Assembly (NCBI GenBank): GCA_004321805.1
Contig: SGZV01000011.1
Span: forward strand, 1 to 44,830
Length of the DNA: 44,830 nt
Direction of reading: 5' to 3'
From: an alpha proteobacterium HIMB59
GTDB lineage: Bacteria; Pseudomonadota; Alphaproteobacteria; HIMB59
The notes under the pieces were generated by a model. The model did no database searches and had not been told where the DNA came from. It saw only the letters and a program-made list of their open reading frames with translations. Below, one piece after another: positions 33,186 through 39,026 of the stretch. The position numbers were made by a program, and so were the translations under genes. Positions within the stretch are counted from its first letter, which is position 1; each line of letters begins with the position of its first letter.

Positions 33186-33252
33186 TGATGTTTAAAGGAT
33201 TCATTTAATAGATTATATTATCCTTGTTGTTTATCAACTATAGCAATAAATA

Positions 33253-33485
33253 CTATATGTGCTAAGTGTATCGGACTCGGGGGCGGTACCCGACACCTCC
33301 ACCAAAAAAATCATGGGGGTGATATAGGCTTGACGTGCTCTGAAGGATATGGTTTTTGCTCGTTGTAAGCGTTTCTTCGATATAGAAACTTAAAATAATT
33401 GCTAACGATAATGAATTAGCACTCGCTGCTTAATCTAATTAGGTAAGCGCGGCTTTGGGGCGGCCGGGCAACAGAACGCCCCTTG
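33253..33485 (+). ncRNA. ssrA: Two-piece (circularly permuted) tmRNA
   Basis: The acceptor piece comes first. Its T-arm is TCGGG (33277-33281), a seven-base loop, then CCCGA (33289-33293), directly followed by acceptor strand CACCTCC (33294-33300), A and encoded CCA (33302-33304). A spacer of ten bases follows, then the coding piece begins GGGGGTG at 33315-33321, pairing with the acceptor strand and giving a G3:U pair, the alanine identity. The reading frame for the tag is at 33401-33433: AANDNELALAA then TAA. A helix GGGGCG (33457-33462) with CGCCCC (33477-33482) fits the final pseudoknot. Permutation is typical of alphaproteobacteria. The outer limits are estimates; a possible promoter TTTAAA-17-TATATT lies at 33191-33219. 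Confidence 0.93.
33401..33433 (+). other. tmRNA proteolysis-tag reading frame
   Basis: Ten codons and TAA encode ANDNELALAA after the alanine carried by the tmRNA; with that first alanine the tag is AANDNELALAA. The start with resume codon GCT, the AND core and the LAA end match bacterial ClpXP/ClpAP degradation tags (E. coli ends ALAA). Confidence 0.88.
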
Positions 33486-33490
33486 AAAAG

Positions 33491-33640
33491 ATGATAAAAT
33501 TAATTTTATTATGTCTTCTTATTGCAGTAATTGCTGAGTTGATTTTTTATTTTCGTAAAAAAGATGATTTTTGGAAATATTTAAGAAATAGAATAATTTA
33601 CTATGTTATTTGTATATTAGTAGTAGTGATTTTTTTTTAA
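33491..33640 (+). CDS. Small membrane protein, 49 residues, directly after tmRNA
   Basis: From the ATG at 33491 this frame gives 49 residues with two hydrophobic segments (about 2-18 and 36-49) around a charged loop FRKKDDFWKYLRNR. A TTG further upstream (33455) is in the tmRNA itself and is rejected. No clear Shine-Dalgarno is seen, and the first codons overlap a 16-base perfect palindrome (33494-33509). The stop is shared through TTAA with the convergent gene. I do not recognise a family. It could be real and transcribed with the tmRNA, or chance coding in an AT-rich stretch. Confidence 0.4.
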   Translation: MIKLILLCLLIAVIAELIFYFRKKDDFWKYLRNRIIYYVICILVVVIFF

Positions 33641-34044
33641 TAAATCTTATCTGATAGGCCGTAAATTAGAATAACAGATACAATAACAAAAAATATTGCA
33701 ATACCTATATCAAGTTTACTATTTTTGGCTGAAATATTCTTATCGACTAACTTAAAATAAAAAGCTGTTTCGTAAATCAATTGGCATAATCCAATCATAA
33801 AAGATAAAATAAAATAAACCCATGTGCCCTCGGTTCCTCTAAAAAGTATTATAAGACCCATTATAAAAAGTGGGACAATAAAAACACCAAGCACTCTAGC
33901 TAAATATAAACTATTCTCTCCTGTATTGTATTCTTTGATTAATCCAGAAGGAGAAAAAACTATTCGAAATACATAAACTCCCTGAAGTCCAATTGCTAAT
34001 ATAAAAAGAAAAAGATAAAAAAAACCATTAAAATTTTCAATCAC
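33637..34044 (-). CDS. Uncharacterised membrane protein, four spans
   Basis: The 135 residues have four hydrophobic segments (about 8-28, 47-66, 74-95 and 110-130) joined by short loops with charges, a credible integral membrane protein. I do not recognise the family. It converges with the small protein after tmRNA, sharing TTAA as both stop codons. The region on its 5' side (34045-34128) shows no gene. Codon use is like the neighbours, so no sign of recent transfer. Confidence 0.65.
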   Translation of the reverse strand: MIENFNGFFYLFLFILAIGLQGVYVFRIVFSPSGLIKEYNTGENSLYLARVLGVFIVPLFIMGLIILFRGTEGTWVYFILSFMIGLCQLIYETAFYFKLVDKNISAKNSKLDIGIAIFFVIVSVILIYGLSDKIY

Positions 34045-34128: not shown

Positions 34129-34320
34129 TTACAAATTTGTTTCAAAAATTCTTTGATCTTTTTGATCAGTGATATTTAAAATTTTAAATTTCTGTGTTTT
34201 TTCTAATTTTTGACCTTTTGATGTAACAAAAGATTTCATTTTTATAACCTCCGCCTGAGGCATTTTTCTTTGATATTTTAAAATATTTTTGTTTCCATCA
34301 ATTATAAGTATAGTTTTCAT
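34129..34320 (-). CDS. Small basic protein, 63 residues, unknown
   Basis: This frame gives a Lys-rich soluble protein (about 14 Lys) with a hydrophobic start ILIIDGNKNIL. It has an ATG, but no Shine-Dalgarno is visible in front. It diverges from the four-gene cassette that begins at 34449, and the 34321-34448 gap between them would hold both promoters. A regulator of that cassette would be in the right place, but no DNA-binding motif is evident. It may be a chance ORF. Confidence 0.35.
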   Translation of the reverse strand: MKTILIIDGNKNILKYQRKMPQAEVIKMKSFVTSKGQKLEKTQKFKILNITDQKDQRIFETNL

Positions 34321-34448
34321 AAAAAATTTAAGTTGCTTTATTATGTTTTAAATTAAAACAATATGCAATAAATTCATATGAATATCATAGTATTTTAATA
34401 AGAATTTAATAATGTTACTGTTAAACTAAAAAAAATGGAGGAATTTCT
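34321..34448. promoter_or_regulatory. Upstream region of the four-gene cassette with palindrome
   Basis: This very AT-rich 128-base stretch separates the small minus-strand frame from the cassette. It holds a perfect 12-base palindrome ATTCATATGAAT (34372-34383) and an AT-only inverted repeat TTTTAA-A-TTAAAA (34346-34358). Either could bind a dimeric regulator, though AT-rich sequence makes palindromes by chance fairly often. A Shine-Dalgarno GGAGG at 34437-34441 lies seven bases before the first ATG. No promoter can be chosen with confidence. Confidence 0.35.
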
Positions 34449-34748
34449 ATGGAGAAAATGATGTTAGCTATAGGTAAACTTAAAGAGGGTGAAGGTAACT
34501 TTGAAAAATTTATGGGATTTATGCAGTCAGATGAAGGTATGGCAGAAAGAAGAAAAGTAGCCCATGTCGAGAAGACCGTTCCTGGAATTTTACCTGACAA
34601 AAGTGGAGTGATGTTTAAGGTACACGTTCATGATGAACAGGCGATGAAAGATTTTGTTTCTGGAAGAAATCCAGTCATGAAACCTATTTATGATGAATGT
34701 ATTGAGAGTATTGAGCTATTTGAATTAACACCTGTAAGCACTGACTAA
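34449..34748 (+). CDS. Uncharacterised small soluble protein, cassette gene 1
   Basis: The 99 residues have no signal peptide or membrane span. They are Met-rich (about nine Met) and alternate strand- and helix-like stretches (MMLAIGKL; FEKFMGFMQSDEGMAERR; GVMFKVHVHDEQAMKDFVSGRNPVMKPIYDECIESIELFEL). This resembles a ferredoxin-like dimeric alpha-beta barrel, as in ABM monooxygenase-like or NIPSNAP-like proteins, but no catalytic motif is recognised. It has a near-perfect GGAGG site. Twelve bases separate it from the cupin gene, so co-transcription is likely. Confidence 0.75.
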   Translation: MEKMMLAIGKLKEGEGNFEKFMGFMQSDEGMAERRKVAHVEKTVPGILPDKSGVMFKVHVHDEQAMKDFVSGRNPVMKPIYDECIESIELFELTPVSTD

Positions 34749-34760
34749 AAAGGAGATATC

Positions 34761-35108
34761 ATGGGAATAGACGTAAGAGATTTTAACAATCCAGACGATC
34801 AAATAAATACATTTAATAATGCGACAGTGGATGTTTGCAAAGTTGGAGATCAAAGAGTAATGAGAATTACTGCAGAGCCTGGTTGGAAATGGTCCAACGA
34901 TGTTAAACCTCATGTAGGTACTGAAAGCTGCCAAACAAGGCATTTAGGTTACATAGCTGAAGGAACTGTTTGTGTCAGAATGGATGACGGTACAGAAGCA
35001 ACATATTCATCTGGACAGGCTTACTCGATCGATCCTGGTCATGATGGATGGGTAGTAGGAAATGAGAAAGCTGTAATGATTGAATTTCATGGAGCATGGG
35101 GAGAATAA
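34761..35108 (+). CDS. Cupin-domain protein, cassette gene 2
   Basis: This 115-residue single cupin domain shows EPGWKWSNDVKPHVGTESCQTRHLGYIAEGTVCVRM (about 39-74; first cupin motif with the Cys/His pair) and PGHDGWVVGNE (about 92-102; second motif). This form, with PGHD.WVVG, is widespread in uncharacterised bacterial cupins. Metal binding through His56 and others is possible but unproven. Its ribosome binding site is AAGGAG at 34750-34755, and gene 3 begins three bases after its stop. Confidence 0.82.
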   Translation: MGIDVRDFNNPDDQINTFNNATVDVCKVGDQRVMRITAEPGWKWSNDVKPHVGTESCQTRHLGYIAEGTVCVRMDDGTEATYSSGQAYSIDPGHDGWVVGNEKAVMIEFHGAWGE

Positions 35109-35111
35109 AAA

Positions 35112-35429
35112 ATGTCATTTAAGGCAATATATACAAGAACAATAAGTGTCAAAGATCACAAATTAGGTGAAGCAATGGAGATTTGTAATGGATTAGCAGA
35201 AGTAAGAAAAAAACACTTCCCTACCTCTCATGTCTTTTTTTCTTTTCAAGTTGGCGGCAACCCTAGAACAATAAGAGAGACATTGATTGGTGAGATGTTT
35301 GGGGATGATGATGAGAGAGACTCTAACATGTCTGCAGATCCTAAATACATTGAACTCCAGGAAAAAGGCAAAGACGTTTTTGTTGAGGGTACAATACAAG
35401 ATGAAATTAGATATATTTTTGCTGACTAA
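35112..35429 (+). CDS. Uncharacterised small soluble protein, cassette gene 3
   Basis: The 105 residues have an N-terminal strand-like start (FKAIYTRTISV), a helix (LGEAMEICNGLAEVRKKHF), then SHVFFSFQVGGNPRTIRETLIGEMF and a Glu/Asp-rich C-terminus. The repeat of strand-helix-strand suggests another dimeric alpha-beta barrel, possibly related in fold to gene 1. I do not recognise a family. The Shine-Dalgarno GGGGAG (35098-35103) overlaps the end of the cupin gene, implying coupling. Confidence 0.75.
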   Translation: MSFKAIYTRTISVKDHKLGEAMEICNGLAEVRKKHFPTSHVFFSFQVGGNPRTIRETLIGEMFGDDDERDSNMSADPKYIELQEKGKDVFVEGTIQDEIRYIFAD

Positions 35430-35465
35430 ATCGATGTTGGTTTTTGAACAATAAAAGGAGTTAAT

Positions 35466-35789
35466 ATGTCAATATTAGAAAGAATGAATAAAGCAATTGA
35501 GGATGTAGATACAGCTACTATGGAAGAACTGATTCATGATGATTTTAAATTTTATTTTCACTCAAGTGGTACAAATATAGGAAAAAGCGAAATTATTGAG
35601 TGGGTAAAAAGTGGAGATGTAAAAAATGAATCACCGCCAAGAATTTTATTTGAAAATGATGAAGTTGGATTTGATCACTCAATTGTCAAATTTTCAGATG
35701 GTAAAAAAGAAGCTGTTATGGCTCATTACAAATTTAAAGATGGTAAGATCATCTTTATGGAAACAGGAGCCACTAAGCTAGATAGCTAA
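35466..35789 (+). CDS. SnoaL/NTF2-like protein, cassette gene 4
   Basis: The 107 residues read as a short cone-shaped NTF2/SnoaL fold: N-terminal helix ILERMNKAIEDVDTATMEELIHDDFKFYFHSSG (about 3-35), GKSEIIEWVKSG (about 39-50) and the paired strands ending YKFKDGKIIFMETGATKLDS. This pattern (EDVDTATMEELIHDDF; FKDGKI) is typical of SnoaL-like proteins, which act as hydrolases, cyclases, isomerases or pure binding proteins. The site AAGGAG (35455-35460) precedes the ATG by five bases. It abuts the convergent MazG-like gene. Confidence 0.8.
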   Translation: MSILERMNKAIEDVDTATMEELIHDDFKFYFHSSGTNIGKSEIIEWVKSGDVKNESPPRILFENDEVGFDHSIVKFSDGKKEAVMAHYKFKDGKIIFMETGATKLDS

Positions 35790-36161
35790 TTAATTTAAGA
35801 ATTTAGAAAGGTCTGGCTTGAAATAGTTTGGGCCTTTCATGACCTTCCCCGCTTCATTATAAATTGGCTTTCCATCCTCTCCTAGCTTACTCATATTAGA
35901 ATTTTGAACTTCATCAAAACATTTATCTAAATCAATTCCAAAAGCATGTCCGGCGCCATAAGTAACATATAAGATATCAGTTAAAGCATCTGCCACTTCT
36001 GTTAAGTCTTTTTCTTTCATAGCATTTGTAAGTTCATCTAATTCTTCTTTGATCAAATCAACTCTAAGTTTATTTGTCTTGTCATCACTAAACTCAGATT
36101 TAGTTTTAACTTCTTGACCATAAGTTAGCATAAACAACTTAACTTTTTCAAAATTAGTCAT
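35790..36161 (-). CDS. MazG-like nucleotide pyrophosphohydrolase
   Basis: This all-alpha NTP pyrophosphohydrolase has 123 residues. The metal-binding motif EExxE-x12-ExxD is exact: Glu39, Glu40, Glu43, Glu56 and Asp59, with ADALTDILYVTYGAGHAFGID following. Such enzymes hydrolyse (d)NTPs, often non-canonical ones, or a phosphoribosyl-ATP-like substrate. With a his gene cluster nearby the latter is worth noting, but the C-terminal KLGEDGKPIYNEAGKVMKGPNYFKPDL matches the house-cleaning MazG-like group, not HisE. It stands alone, converging with the cassette. Confidence 0.87.
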   Translation of the reverse strand: MTNFEKVKLFMLTYGQEVKTKSEFSDDKTNKLRVDLIKEELDELTNAMKEKDLTEVADALTDILYVTYGAGHAFGIDLDKCFDEVQNSNMSKLGEDGKPIYNEAGKVMKGPNYFKPDLSKFLN

Positions 36162-36283: not shown

Positions 36284-36359
<76 letters not shown>

Positions 36360-37754: not shown

Positions 37755-39026
37755 TTATGTTTTGATTTTACGAATTTCAACTGATAAAGCATGAGCTTCG
37801 AGGCCTTCTTGTCTCGCTAAATCAATTGTAGGTTGGGCTATCTTCTTTAGAGTCTTGTTACCAGCCTCAATGAAAACTGTTTTCTTAACAAAATCATCGA
37901 CGCTAAGACCTGAAGAAAATCGTGCTGTTTGATCTGTAGGTAAAACATGATTAGTGCCAATTGTATAATCTCCTAAAGCTACTGGAGCCTTCTCACCTAC
38001 AAAGACAGACCCTGCATGAATTATATTTTTCAGTAAACTTTTGTTAAATTTAGAATGAATATGAAGGTGTTCTGGTGCAATAAAATTGGATATTTCATAT
38101 ATCTCTTTTTCATTTTTAGCATGAATTAAAAAACAATTATTTCCTATCGAATGTTTAACATTTTGAAGAGGTAAGTTTTTAAGTTTAACAGCAATTTCAT
38201 TTTTAATTTTTTGTAATATATCACGTGACCTAGAGACAACATATGTCTTAGCATTAATATCATGTTCTGCTTGAGCTAAAATATCCAAGGCAACCCATGA
38301 AGGATTTGATTTATTATTGGCAATGACAAGAACTTCAGAAGGGCCCGCAGGTAAATCAATTCCAATAGTACCAAAAAGTTGTTTTTTTGCTTCTGCAACA
38401 AATTGATTTCCAGGTCCAAAAACCTTATCCGCTTTTTGAATGGTTTTTGTACCAAAAGCATAAGCAGCTATGGCTTGAGCCCCACCAACATTAAATACTT
38501 TATCAACGCCACTTAAGTGTGCTGCTGCTAGTGTTAATGTTGATGTTTTGCCGTTTTGTGAAGGTACGCACATCATCACGTTTGGTACTTTTGCAATTTT
38601 TGCGGGAATAGATGTCATGAGTACAGTTGACGGATAGGATGCCATTCCTCCTGGCACATATAATCCAACATTCTCAATAGGATTCCATTGAATATGAAAT
38701 TTGGAGTCTTCTTGATCACGAAAAGAATAAGACTTTCTTATTTGCTTTAAGTGATAAAAGTAAATTCTTTGATGAGCTAGTTTTAACGCTCTTTTATCTT
38801 TTAGAGATAGAGATTGATAGGCATTTGCTAATTGTTTTTTGGAAAAAACAATATCCTTGATCTGAGCTTTAGAATTTTCAAATTTTTTGACATATTTTAA
38901 TAAAGCTTTATCTCCATTACGTTCAATATCTTTAATTATTGATTGAACAATGGATCCGACTCTAGATTTATTATTATTGAAAGACTTTAGGTTTTTGTAA
39001 ATCCAGCTTTTAGAAACTGTTTTCAT
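37755..39026 (-). CDS. hisD: Histidinol dehydrogenase
   Basis: This enzyme does the last two oxidations of histidine synthesis, L-histidinol to histidine, with NAD and zinc. The 423 residues show [18 protein letters not shown] (about 126-143), [16 protein letters not shown] (about 189-204), [14 protein letters not shown] (about 228-241; catalytic-domain core), EHDINAK (about 260), the catalytic Glu/His region [11 protein letters not shown] (about 321-331) and [14 protein letters not shown] (about 358-371). It shares a base with the hisG stop. Confidence 0.97.

Follow-up and report, generated by a model that had tools for sequence, protein, structure and literature searches.

A four-gene cassette of an HIMB59 alphaproteobacterium as a probable variant of a recombining small-barrel array found in two marine bacterial orders

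Results

The cassette and its surroundings

The window, by which we mean the whole stretch of 44,830 nucleotides analysed here, belongs to an incomplete HIMB59 genome of 1.07 Mb and lies on a contig with a G+C content of 30.2%. Four small genes stand in a row in it (Table 1), separated by gaps of 12, 3 and 36 bases. The ORF calls bear out the initial annotation, which had described four adjacent plus-strand genes of 99, 115, 105 and 107 residues with gaps of 3–36 bases; position 34321, given there as the start of the unit, is intergenic DNA ahead of gene 1. The Shine-Dalgarno sites of genes 2, 3 and 4 are placed just 5' of each start. On the left, a gene for a membrane protein, which is probably a partner of the arrays described below, is found 404 bases upstream of gene 1. 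The conserved 63-residue gene between them has a weak PADLOC match to KwaB (DUF4868, E 3e-4). On the right, gene 4 runs tail to tail into the MazG/PRA-PH-like gene, which is 85–93% identical across eight same-genus loci. Further along, a hisD-like gene (37755–39026) shows 72–80% identity to relatives against 84–100% for its neighbours and appears to be another exchanged or fast-changing gene.

Table 1. Features of the cassette and its flanks, with positions in the window
Feature	Position	Strand	Description	Basis
tmRNA gene (alpha_tmRNA)	33187–33485	+	left flank of the variable region	Rfam RF01849, 183 bits; ARAGORN 33211–33524
Membrane gene, unannotated	33637–34044	-	135 aa; family in 26/47 Pelagibacterales array loci	
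Conserved 63-aa gene	34129–34320	-	flank; upstream of the cassette in many same-genus genomes	
Gene 1 Shine-Dalgarno stretch	34434–34448	+	contains GGAGG	
Gene 1	34449–34748	+	99 aa; ferredoxin-like (dimeric alpha+beta barrel-type) protein; first bracket gene	ORF call, predicted fold
Gene 2	34761–35108	+	115 aa; cupin, altered metal motif	sub-cut-off Cupin_2 match, conserved residues
Gene 3	35112–35429	+	105 aa; NIPSNAP/ABM-like barrel protein	predicted fold
Gene 4	35466–35789	+	107 aa; SnoaL/NTF2-like; second bracket gene	Pfam DUF4440, SnoaL_2
MazG/PRA-PH-like gene	35790–36161	-	conserved right flank	Pfam PRA-PH, E 5e-22
tRNA-Phe	36284–36359	+	right flank	

Coding status and expression signals

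All four genes are under purifying selection. Codon comparisons with relatives gave dN 0.066 against dS 1.13 for gene 1, 0.026 against 0.88 for gene 2, 0.238 against 1.21 for gene 3 and 0.084 against 0.81 for gene 4, and dN stayed far below dS in every pair for which dS was computable (several pairs were saturated), so that all four are translated genes. Their Shine-Dalgarno strings (GGAGG, AAGGAG, GGGGAG and AAGGAG, in gene order) form duplexes with the anti-Shine-Dalgarno sequence at calculated energies of -9.3, -8.7, -8.6 and -8.2, which are ranks 2–5 among the 48 genes of the window. Among the 44 other genes the median energy is -0.9 and just 3 reach -7 (Mann-Whitney against the cassette, p = 0.0007), in agreement with the initial reading of these sites as near-consensus and rare elsewhere in the window. 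Strong Shine-Dalgarno sites are an array-wide property in the order Pelagibacterales too: there 131 of the 262 genes in arrays reach a duplex energy of -7, compared with 41 of the 497 genes that flank them, single-copy ORFs and ORFs shorter than 85 residues being left out of the count. High protein levels of the cassette genes may be expected from these sites, and the short gaps and shared orientation indicate that the four genes are probably co-transcribed. A promoter scan returned 8 promoter-like sites against 15.5 in shuffles, with none standing out, a terminator scan returned 0 terminators, and the 170-base stretches upstream of gene 1 from 15 loci align only within subclades, revealing no conserved promoter. 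Rfam at gathering scores found no riboswitch in the window, where the tmRNA (two models) and the tRNA are the only matches, and gave no match in the 12 of the 47 Pelagibacterales array loci that were scanned.

Predicted folds of genes 1 and 3

Sequence comparison says little about these two proteins. Pfam lists no family at E ≤ 1 for genes 1 and 3 of the window and none at 0.1 for any of 11 scanned members of the gene 3 family, and sequence searches against solved structures yielded no credible match for genes 1 and 3 (nor any match at 0.01 for genes 2 and 4). The initial annotation had guessed, from an alternation of helices and strands, at dimeric barrels of the ABM/NIPSNAP kind, and structure searches with AlphaFold models support this guess, strongly for gene 3 and more weakly for gene 1. 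The gene 3 model (pLDDT 89, pTM 0.80) has NIPSNAP proteins as its best matches, with 1vqs found both by Foldseek (E 5.2e-7, TM 0.73) and by VIA (Z 12.1, rmsd 2.3 over 102 aligned residues), and its predicted fold is that of a NIPSNAP/ABM-like barrel. The gene 1 model (pLDDT 95, pTM 0.82) is less surely a match to the same ferredoxin-like barrel. Its best VIA match is E. coli YgiN (Z 9.0, rmsd 2.6, 88 aligned) and its best Foldseek match is an ABM protein (E 3.8e-4); since ribosomal protein S6 and the ACT domain score within 1 of YgiN in VIA, only the ferredoxin-like arrangement is sure. Matches of the two models include OAC, SnoaB, TftG and YgiN. The models are of single chains; homodimers with ligand pockets would be expected for both proteins.

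Gene 2, an altered cupin, and gene 4, a SnoaL-like protein

The initial cupin and SnoaL-like assignments both hold. Gene 2 matches Cupin_2 below the Pfam cut-off (E 0.0019, 18.3 bits against 27.2), and its conserved residues are unusual for this fold. The first motif of canonical cupins is HxH with a glutamate. In gene 2 the usual second histidine of this motif is glycine in 49 of 51 distinct homologues (32 from the two orders, HIMB59 and Pelagibacterales, and 19 from elsewhere, including one haloarchaeon) and position 67 varies, while Cys57, His61 and the motif 2 histidine, His94, are invariant in all 51. These three residues may form a Cys-His-His metal site. We considered an identity with DMSP-lyase cupins and set it aside because the canonical motif is lacking. 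Gene 4 scores 29 bits for DUF4440, above the cut-off of 25.2, and its 27 bits for SnoaL_2 equal the cut-off of 27.

States of the cassette within the genus

The order HIMB59, formerly SAR11 clade V, comprises two families with 29–31% G+C, and Pelagibacterales is another order, according to PMC10734472. We compared 100 genomes of the order, 52 from the same genus as the window (G000–G051) and 48 from the sister family, and found the gene 1 family in 44 of them, gene 3 in 6 and gene 4 in 86. Within the genus the numbers are 40 for gene 1, 14 for gene 2 and 4 for gene 3. In 39 of these 40 genomes gene 4 lies downstream of gene 1 in the same orientation, and in the 40th (G025) gene 1 sits at a contig end. 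What lies between the two differs: nothing in 25 genomes, where they are 17–27 bases apart (match to match), gene 2 in 10, and genes 2 and 3 in 4. One locus thus exists in nested states (g1-g4, g1-g2-g4 and g1-g2-g3-g4), and the suggestion of a fixed stand-alone four-gene unit was not supported, as all four genes are together in 4 of 52 same-genus genomes and in 8 of 47 Pelagibacterales loci.

The usual order at the locus is thyX, tmRNA, variable genes, cassette, mazG-like gene, tRNA-Phe, RNase E/G-like gene and infA, where the names thyX, RNase E/G-like and infA are presumed by recognition. Content is therefore variable at a fixed position between conserved flanks, as in a flexible island or a recombining cassette. 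In two genomes (G015 and G024) genes 1 and 4 are found as a pair elsewhere, at a locus that lacks both tmRNA and tRNA-Phe, so the two have moved together.

Other variation was seen at and around this place. The tmRNA tag peptide occurs in the genus as ANDNELALAA, ANNNELALAA and AKNNQLALAA (window 33187–33524; loci L105–L121), and all four loci with AKNNQLALAA (L110, L112, L113 and L121) have extra genes between the tmRNA and the cassette, which suggests that the tmRNA end may have been exchanged together with the inserts. A rhodanese gene and an ABM gene occupy the same hot spot in one of them (L112:4638–6112). Three same-genus genomes (loci L136, L143 and L144) hold a second cluster, with gene-4-like proteins, barrels of the k34 and k21 families and, in part, peroxiredoxin-like genes. 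A cysE link in these three was dropped, as the protein only weakly matches the cysE-cluster profile and may be another hexapeptide acyltransferase.

Exchange of alleles and descent

Divergence in this region is local. The three genomes that also have all four genes share 83–94% identity with the window in genes 1 and 2, 81–86% in gene 4 and only 65–69% in gene 3. In genomes that lack gene 3, gene 4 is just about 50% identical to that of the window, while thyX, the mazG-like gene and the RNase gene keep 85–95%. Genes 3 and 4 have thus diverged far more than most neighbouring genes, which indicates that alleles were exchanged. All four gene 3 genomes of the genus carry a second type of gene 4, and since gene 3 always comes with this type and the divergence is local, gene 3 and that gene 4 allele probably arrived together. 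Gene 3 was then probably exchanged again later, which would make the cassette a mosaic.

On a larger scale, the gene 1 tree groups the sister-family copies with 23 Pelagibacterales copies in one clade of 27 rows (support 100), which suggests that genes may have been transferred between the order HIMB59 and Pelagibacterales, although tree tests did not reject a single HIMB59-order clade (p 0.0875 for gene 1 and 0.203 for gene 3). A repeat search of the window region and two array loci, made with integron-like repeats in mind, found no family at successive borders beyond the similarity of the Shine-Dalgarno–start regions. We also considered a viral origin and a defence role and rejected both: a profile search of viral contigs with the gene 2 and gene 3 alignments confirmed no relative, PHROGs gave 0 of 6, and PADLOC matched 0 of 4 cassette proteins.

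Arrays in Pelagibacterales

The gene 1 family is present in 113 of 247 Pelagibacterales genomes. We read 47 loci, made up of 7 from a first set of 8 (L031 was left out, its genome being counted already) and a further 40 hand-chosen from 39 of the 113 positive genomes, with ORFs of at least 60 residues called mechanically, longest first, so that small or overlapping genes may be missed. The strings of genes at these loci are extremely variable, 42 of the 47 being distinct, but the bracket is kept: gene 4 is found in 43 loci, and gene 1 stands ahead of the last gene 4 in all 43 one-strand loci, with 0 to 5 genes between. Gene 2 is present in 15 loci, gene 3 in 19 and all four genes in 8, although, as loci were chosen by gene 1 or gene 3, the frequencies of these two there mean little. 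Other recurrent members are DUF1330 (k18), DUF3764 (k21), GYD (k24) and a second SnoaL_2 protein (k25), along with small proteins that have no Pfam name (k16 and k34). Further members include DUF2798 (k15) and a DSBA-domain protein (k19), and two families (k7 and k27) have apparent signal peptides. The k27 family (for example L033:4934–5422), with proteins of about 160 residues, is found in 15 of the 47 arrays, and the one member scanned had no Pfam match. A genome of this order, G502, has two copies of gene 1, one in an array (L202) and one without array partners (L220).

Cupin, SnoaL-like and ABM-like genes do therefore recur together, as had been remarked at the outset, and the company they keep is wider here. 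The absence of adjoining redox or transport genes, stated in the initial annotation, is correct for the window, but not for the related arrays, where SMR transporters (k2) occur in 41 of 47 loci and cysE-cysK lie upstream on the same strand in 37. A median of 86.5 bases separates cysK from the array, compared with 13 between array genes, so cysK and the array need not share a transcript, and the cysE-cysK pair may be an inherited neighbourhood. Genes resembling type III SQR (7 of 47) and persulfide dioxygenase (metallo-beta-lactamase fold, 12 of 47) both score below the cut-offs of their models.

Sister family and more distant lineages

The initial proposal of searching relatives for the same four-gene order gave a largely negative answer in the sister family, where the cassette families are mostly scattered: gene 2 is present in 22 of 48 genomes and gene 4 adjoins it in 2 of these 22. 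One genome of this family, G083, has genes 2, 3, 4 and 4' in a row at one locus (L122) and an SMR-family gene, a membrane gene of the 33637 type, gene 1 and a k34 barrel together at another (L123). In the wider class, gene 1 was found in 2 of 240 genomes and gene 3 in 2 of 230, all from the window's own genus. Gene 2 is more widespread, with homologues in 11 of 230 genomes of the class and 6 of 398 of the phylum. Among 13 loci with gene 2 homologues outside the two orders, an array-like arrangement is seen only at L160 and, less clearly, at L159, where the cupin is amid several small ORFs; at most of the others the cupin stands alone. At L160, from another small-genome alphaproteobacterium, a double DUF6854 protein, the cupin, a 111-residue protein, another cupin, a GYD-like protein and a k16 barrel follow in a row. 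An unrelated alphaproteobacterium (L164) has the gene-2 cupin 8 bases before a cysteine synthase gene, which is the one locus, among those read outside the two orders, that links the cupin to cysK, and a haloarchaeal plasmid has a DUF4242 protein ahead of the cupin.

Discussion

The comparisons indicate that the four genes of the window are a single variant of a small-barrel array that recombines and occurs in abundant marine bacteria belonging to two orders. What do these proteins do? The reading that we prefer, with a probability of roughly 0.4, is that of a recombining cassette of accessory small-molecule-handling proteins. The window would then hold a compact and strongly translated gene set for four small soluble proteins with ligand pockets, two being ferredoxin-like/NIPSNAP-type barrels, another an altered cupin and the last a SnoaL/NTF2-like protein. 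The slot between the bracketing genes 1 and 4 has its content exchanged by recombination. Each protein would bind or convert a small, probably reactive organic molecule, such as a quinone, an aldehyde or a sulfur electrophile, and the set would act as accessory detoxification or tailoring enzymes, completed in Pelagibacterales by the small multidrug-resistance pumps. Members would be swapped because the compounds met vary between populations. That the cassette has a shared metabolic function at all is something that we infer.

The main rival dispenses with such a function. It sees a tolerant insertion slot here: good translation of the operon would make the stretch between genes 1 and 4 a suitable place for small genes that are useful but unrelated and share no pathway. 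The extreme variability of content, with 42 of 47 strings distinct, is what such a slot would produce; the same families are scattered in the sister family, and some array members look secreted or membrane-bound with no evident link to the rest. However, random cargo should vary more than is seen, as a dozen families keep coming back in both orders and, in part, in a third lineage, and many of them are alike in fold class and size. We consider the insertion slot somewhat unlikely, though a serious competitor.

The genes for sulfur metabolism near the Pelagibacterales arrays call for a more specific alternative, a reactive-sulfur or cysteine metabolism unit in which the proteins would act as helpers of cysteine synthase or deal with persulfides and electrophiles derived from sulfide. 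It would account for cysE-cysK directly upstream in most Pelagibacterales loci (37 of 47), for the SQR-like and persulfide-dioxygenase-like genes (sub-cut-off, in 7 and 12 loci), for the cupin just before cysteine synthase in L164 and for the rhodanese and ABM genes at the hot spot in L112. We nevertheless regard it as improbable: no such genes are next to the cassette in the window, the gap to cysK is larger than those within the arrays, L164 is the single independent cupin-cysK case among the loci read outside the two orders, and neither cysK nor cysE responded when sulfur was limiting in Ca. P. ubique, as reported in PMC5069961. For the recombining set of accessory proteins, the same neighbourhood (cysE, cysK, SQR-like and metallo-beta-lactamase-fold genes) may be a hint towards sulfur electrophiles as the molecules handled, weakened by the separate spacing and by this lack of response.

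Still less probable is that the proteins are tailoring enzymes (a cyclase, an oxygenase, an isomerase) of one small polyketide-like or aromatic metabolite that is made or degraded. ABM, SnoaL and cupin folds do occur in pathways of this kind, and the models of genes 1 and 3 match OAC, SnoaB, TftG and YgiN, but fold matches carry no function, and neither the cassette nor the arrays read showed a recognisable synthase, dioxygenase or regulator. Anti-phage or toxin-antitoxin cargo, for which variable small genes beside a tmRNA gene would be the usual place, is very improbable, as none of the four cassette proteins has a PADLOC or PHROGs match at E 0.01 and genes 2 and 3 have no related place in viral contigs.

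SAR11 and HIMB59 bacteria are among the most abundant in the ocean and have very little surplus DNA, but these genes are present in many of them. In such minimal genomes, genes that recur together, are constantly swapped and have strong ribosome-binding sites would be expected to respond to an important and changing factor in sea water. We allow ourselves a speculation beyond the accessory cassette, one that we do not think probable: both groups might keep a combinatorial repertoire of small ligand-pocket proteins for chemical defence or the processing of infochemicals, held in the bracketed slot, strongly translated, paired with small efflux pumps and reshuffled between populations. By analogy, such a repertoire could be likened to the surface-sugar islands that are reshuffled for phage. 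In any case the arrays make a defined group of roughly twelve small proteins, mostly soluble, available for testing, along with a cupin whose conserved Cys-His-His residues are unusual.

No account of the array was found in the open-access literature that we searched, and its parts resemble known systems to different degrees. Gene 3, and less surely gene 1, are alike in predicted fold to the NIPSNAP/ABM dimeric alpha+beta barrel proteins (Atu4242 (1vqs), YgiN, LsrG), but differ from them in lacking a Pfam match, and their identity to the listed solved structures is at most about 20%. Gene 2 shares with the small Cupin_2 cupins the PGH region of the second motif and the overall length, whereas it has Cys57-x3-His61-x-Gly63 and a non-conserved position 67 in place of the motif 1 HxH...E. 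Gene 4 passes as a SnoaL-like/DUF4440 protein of the NTF2 fold by the DUF4440 cut-off and equals that of SnoaL_2; DUF4440 is itself a domain of unknown function, and gene 4 is a short single domain of 107 residues. As a whole, the cassette resembles the flexible islands in HIMB59 and SAR11 genomes, such as fGIp (described in PMC10734472, the text of which has no mention of a cupin or a tmRNA), in its variable content, fixed position, conserved flanks and exchange between relatives. Islands of the fGIp type are phosphate or phosphonate islands, while the cassette is a slot between two bracket genes for small barrel proteins.
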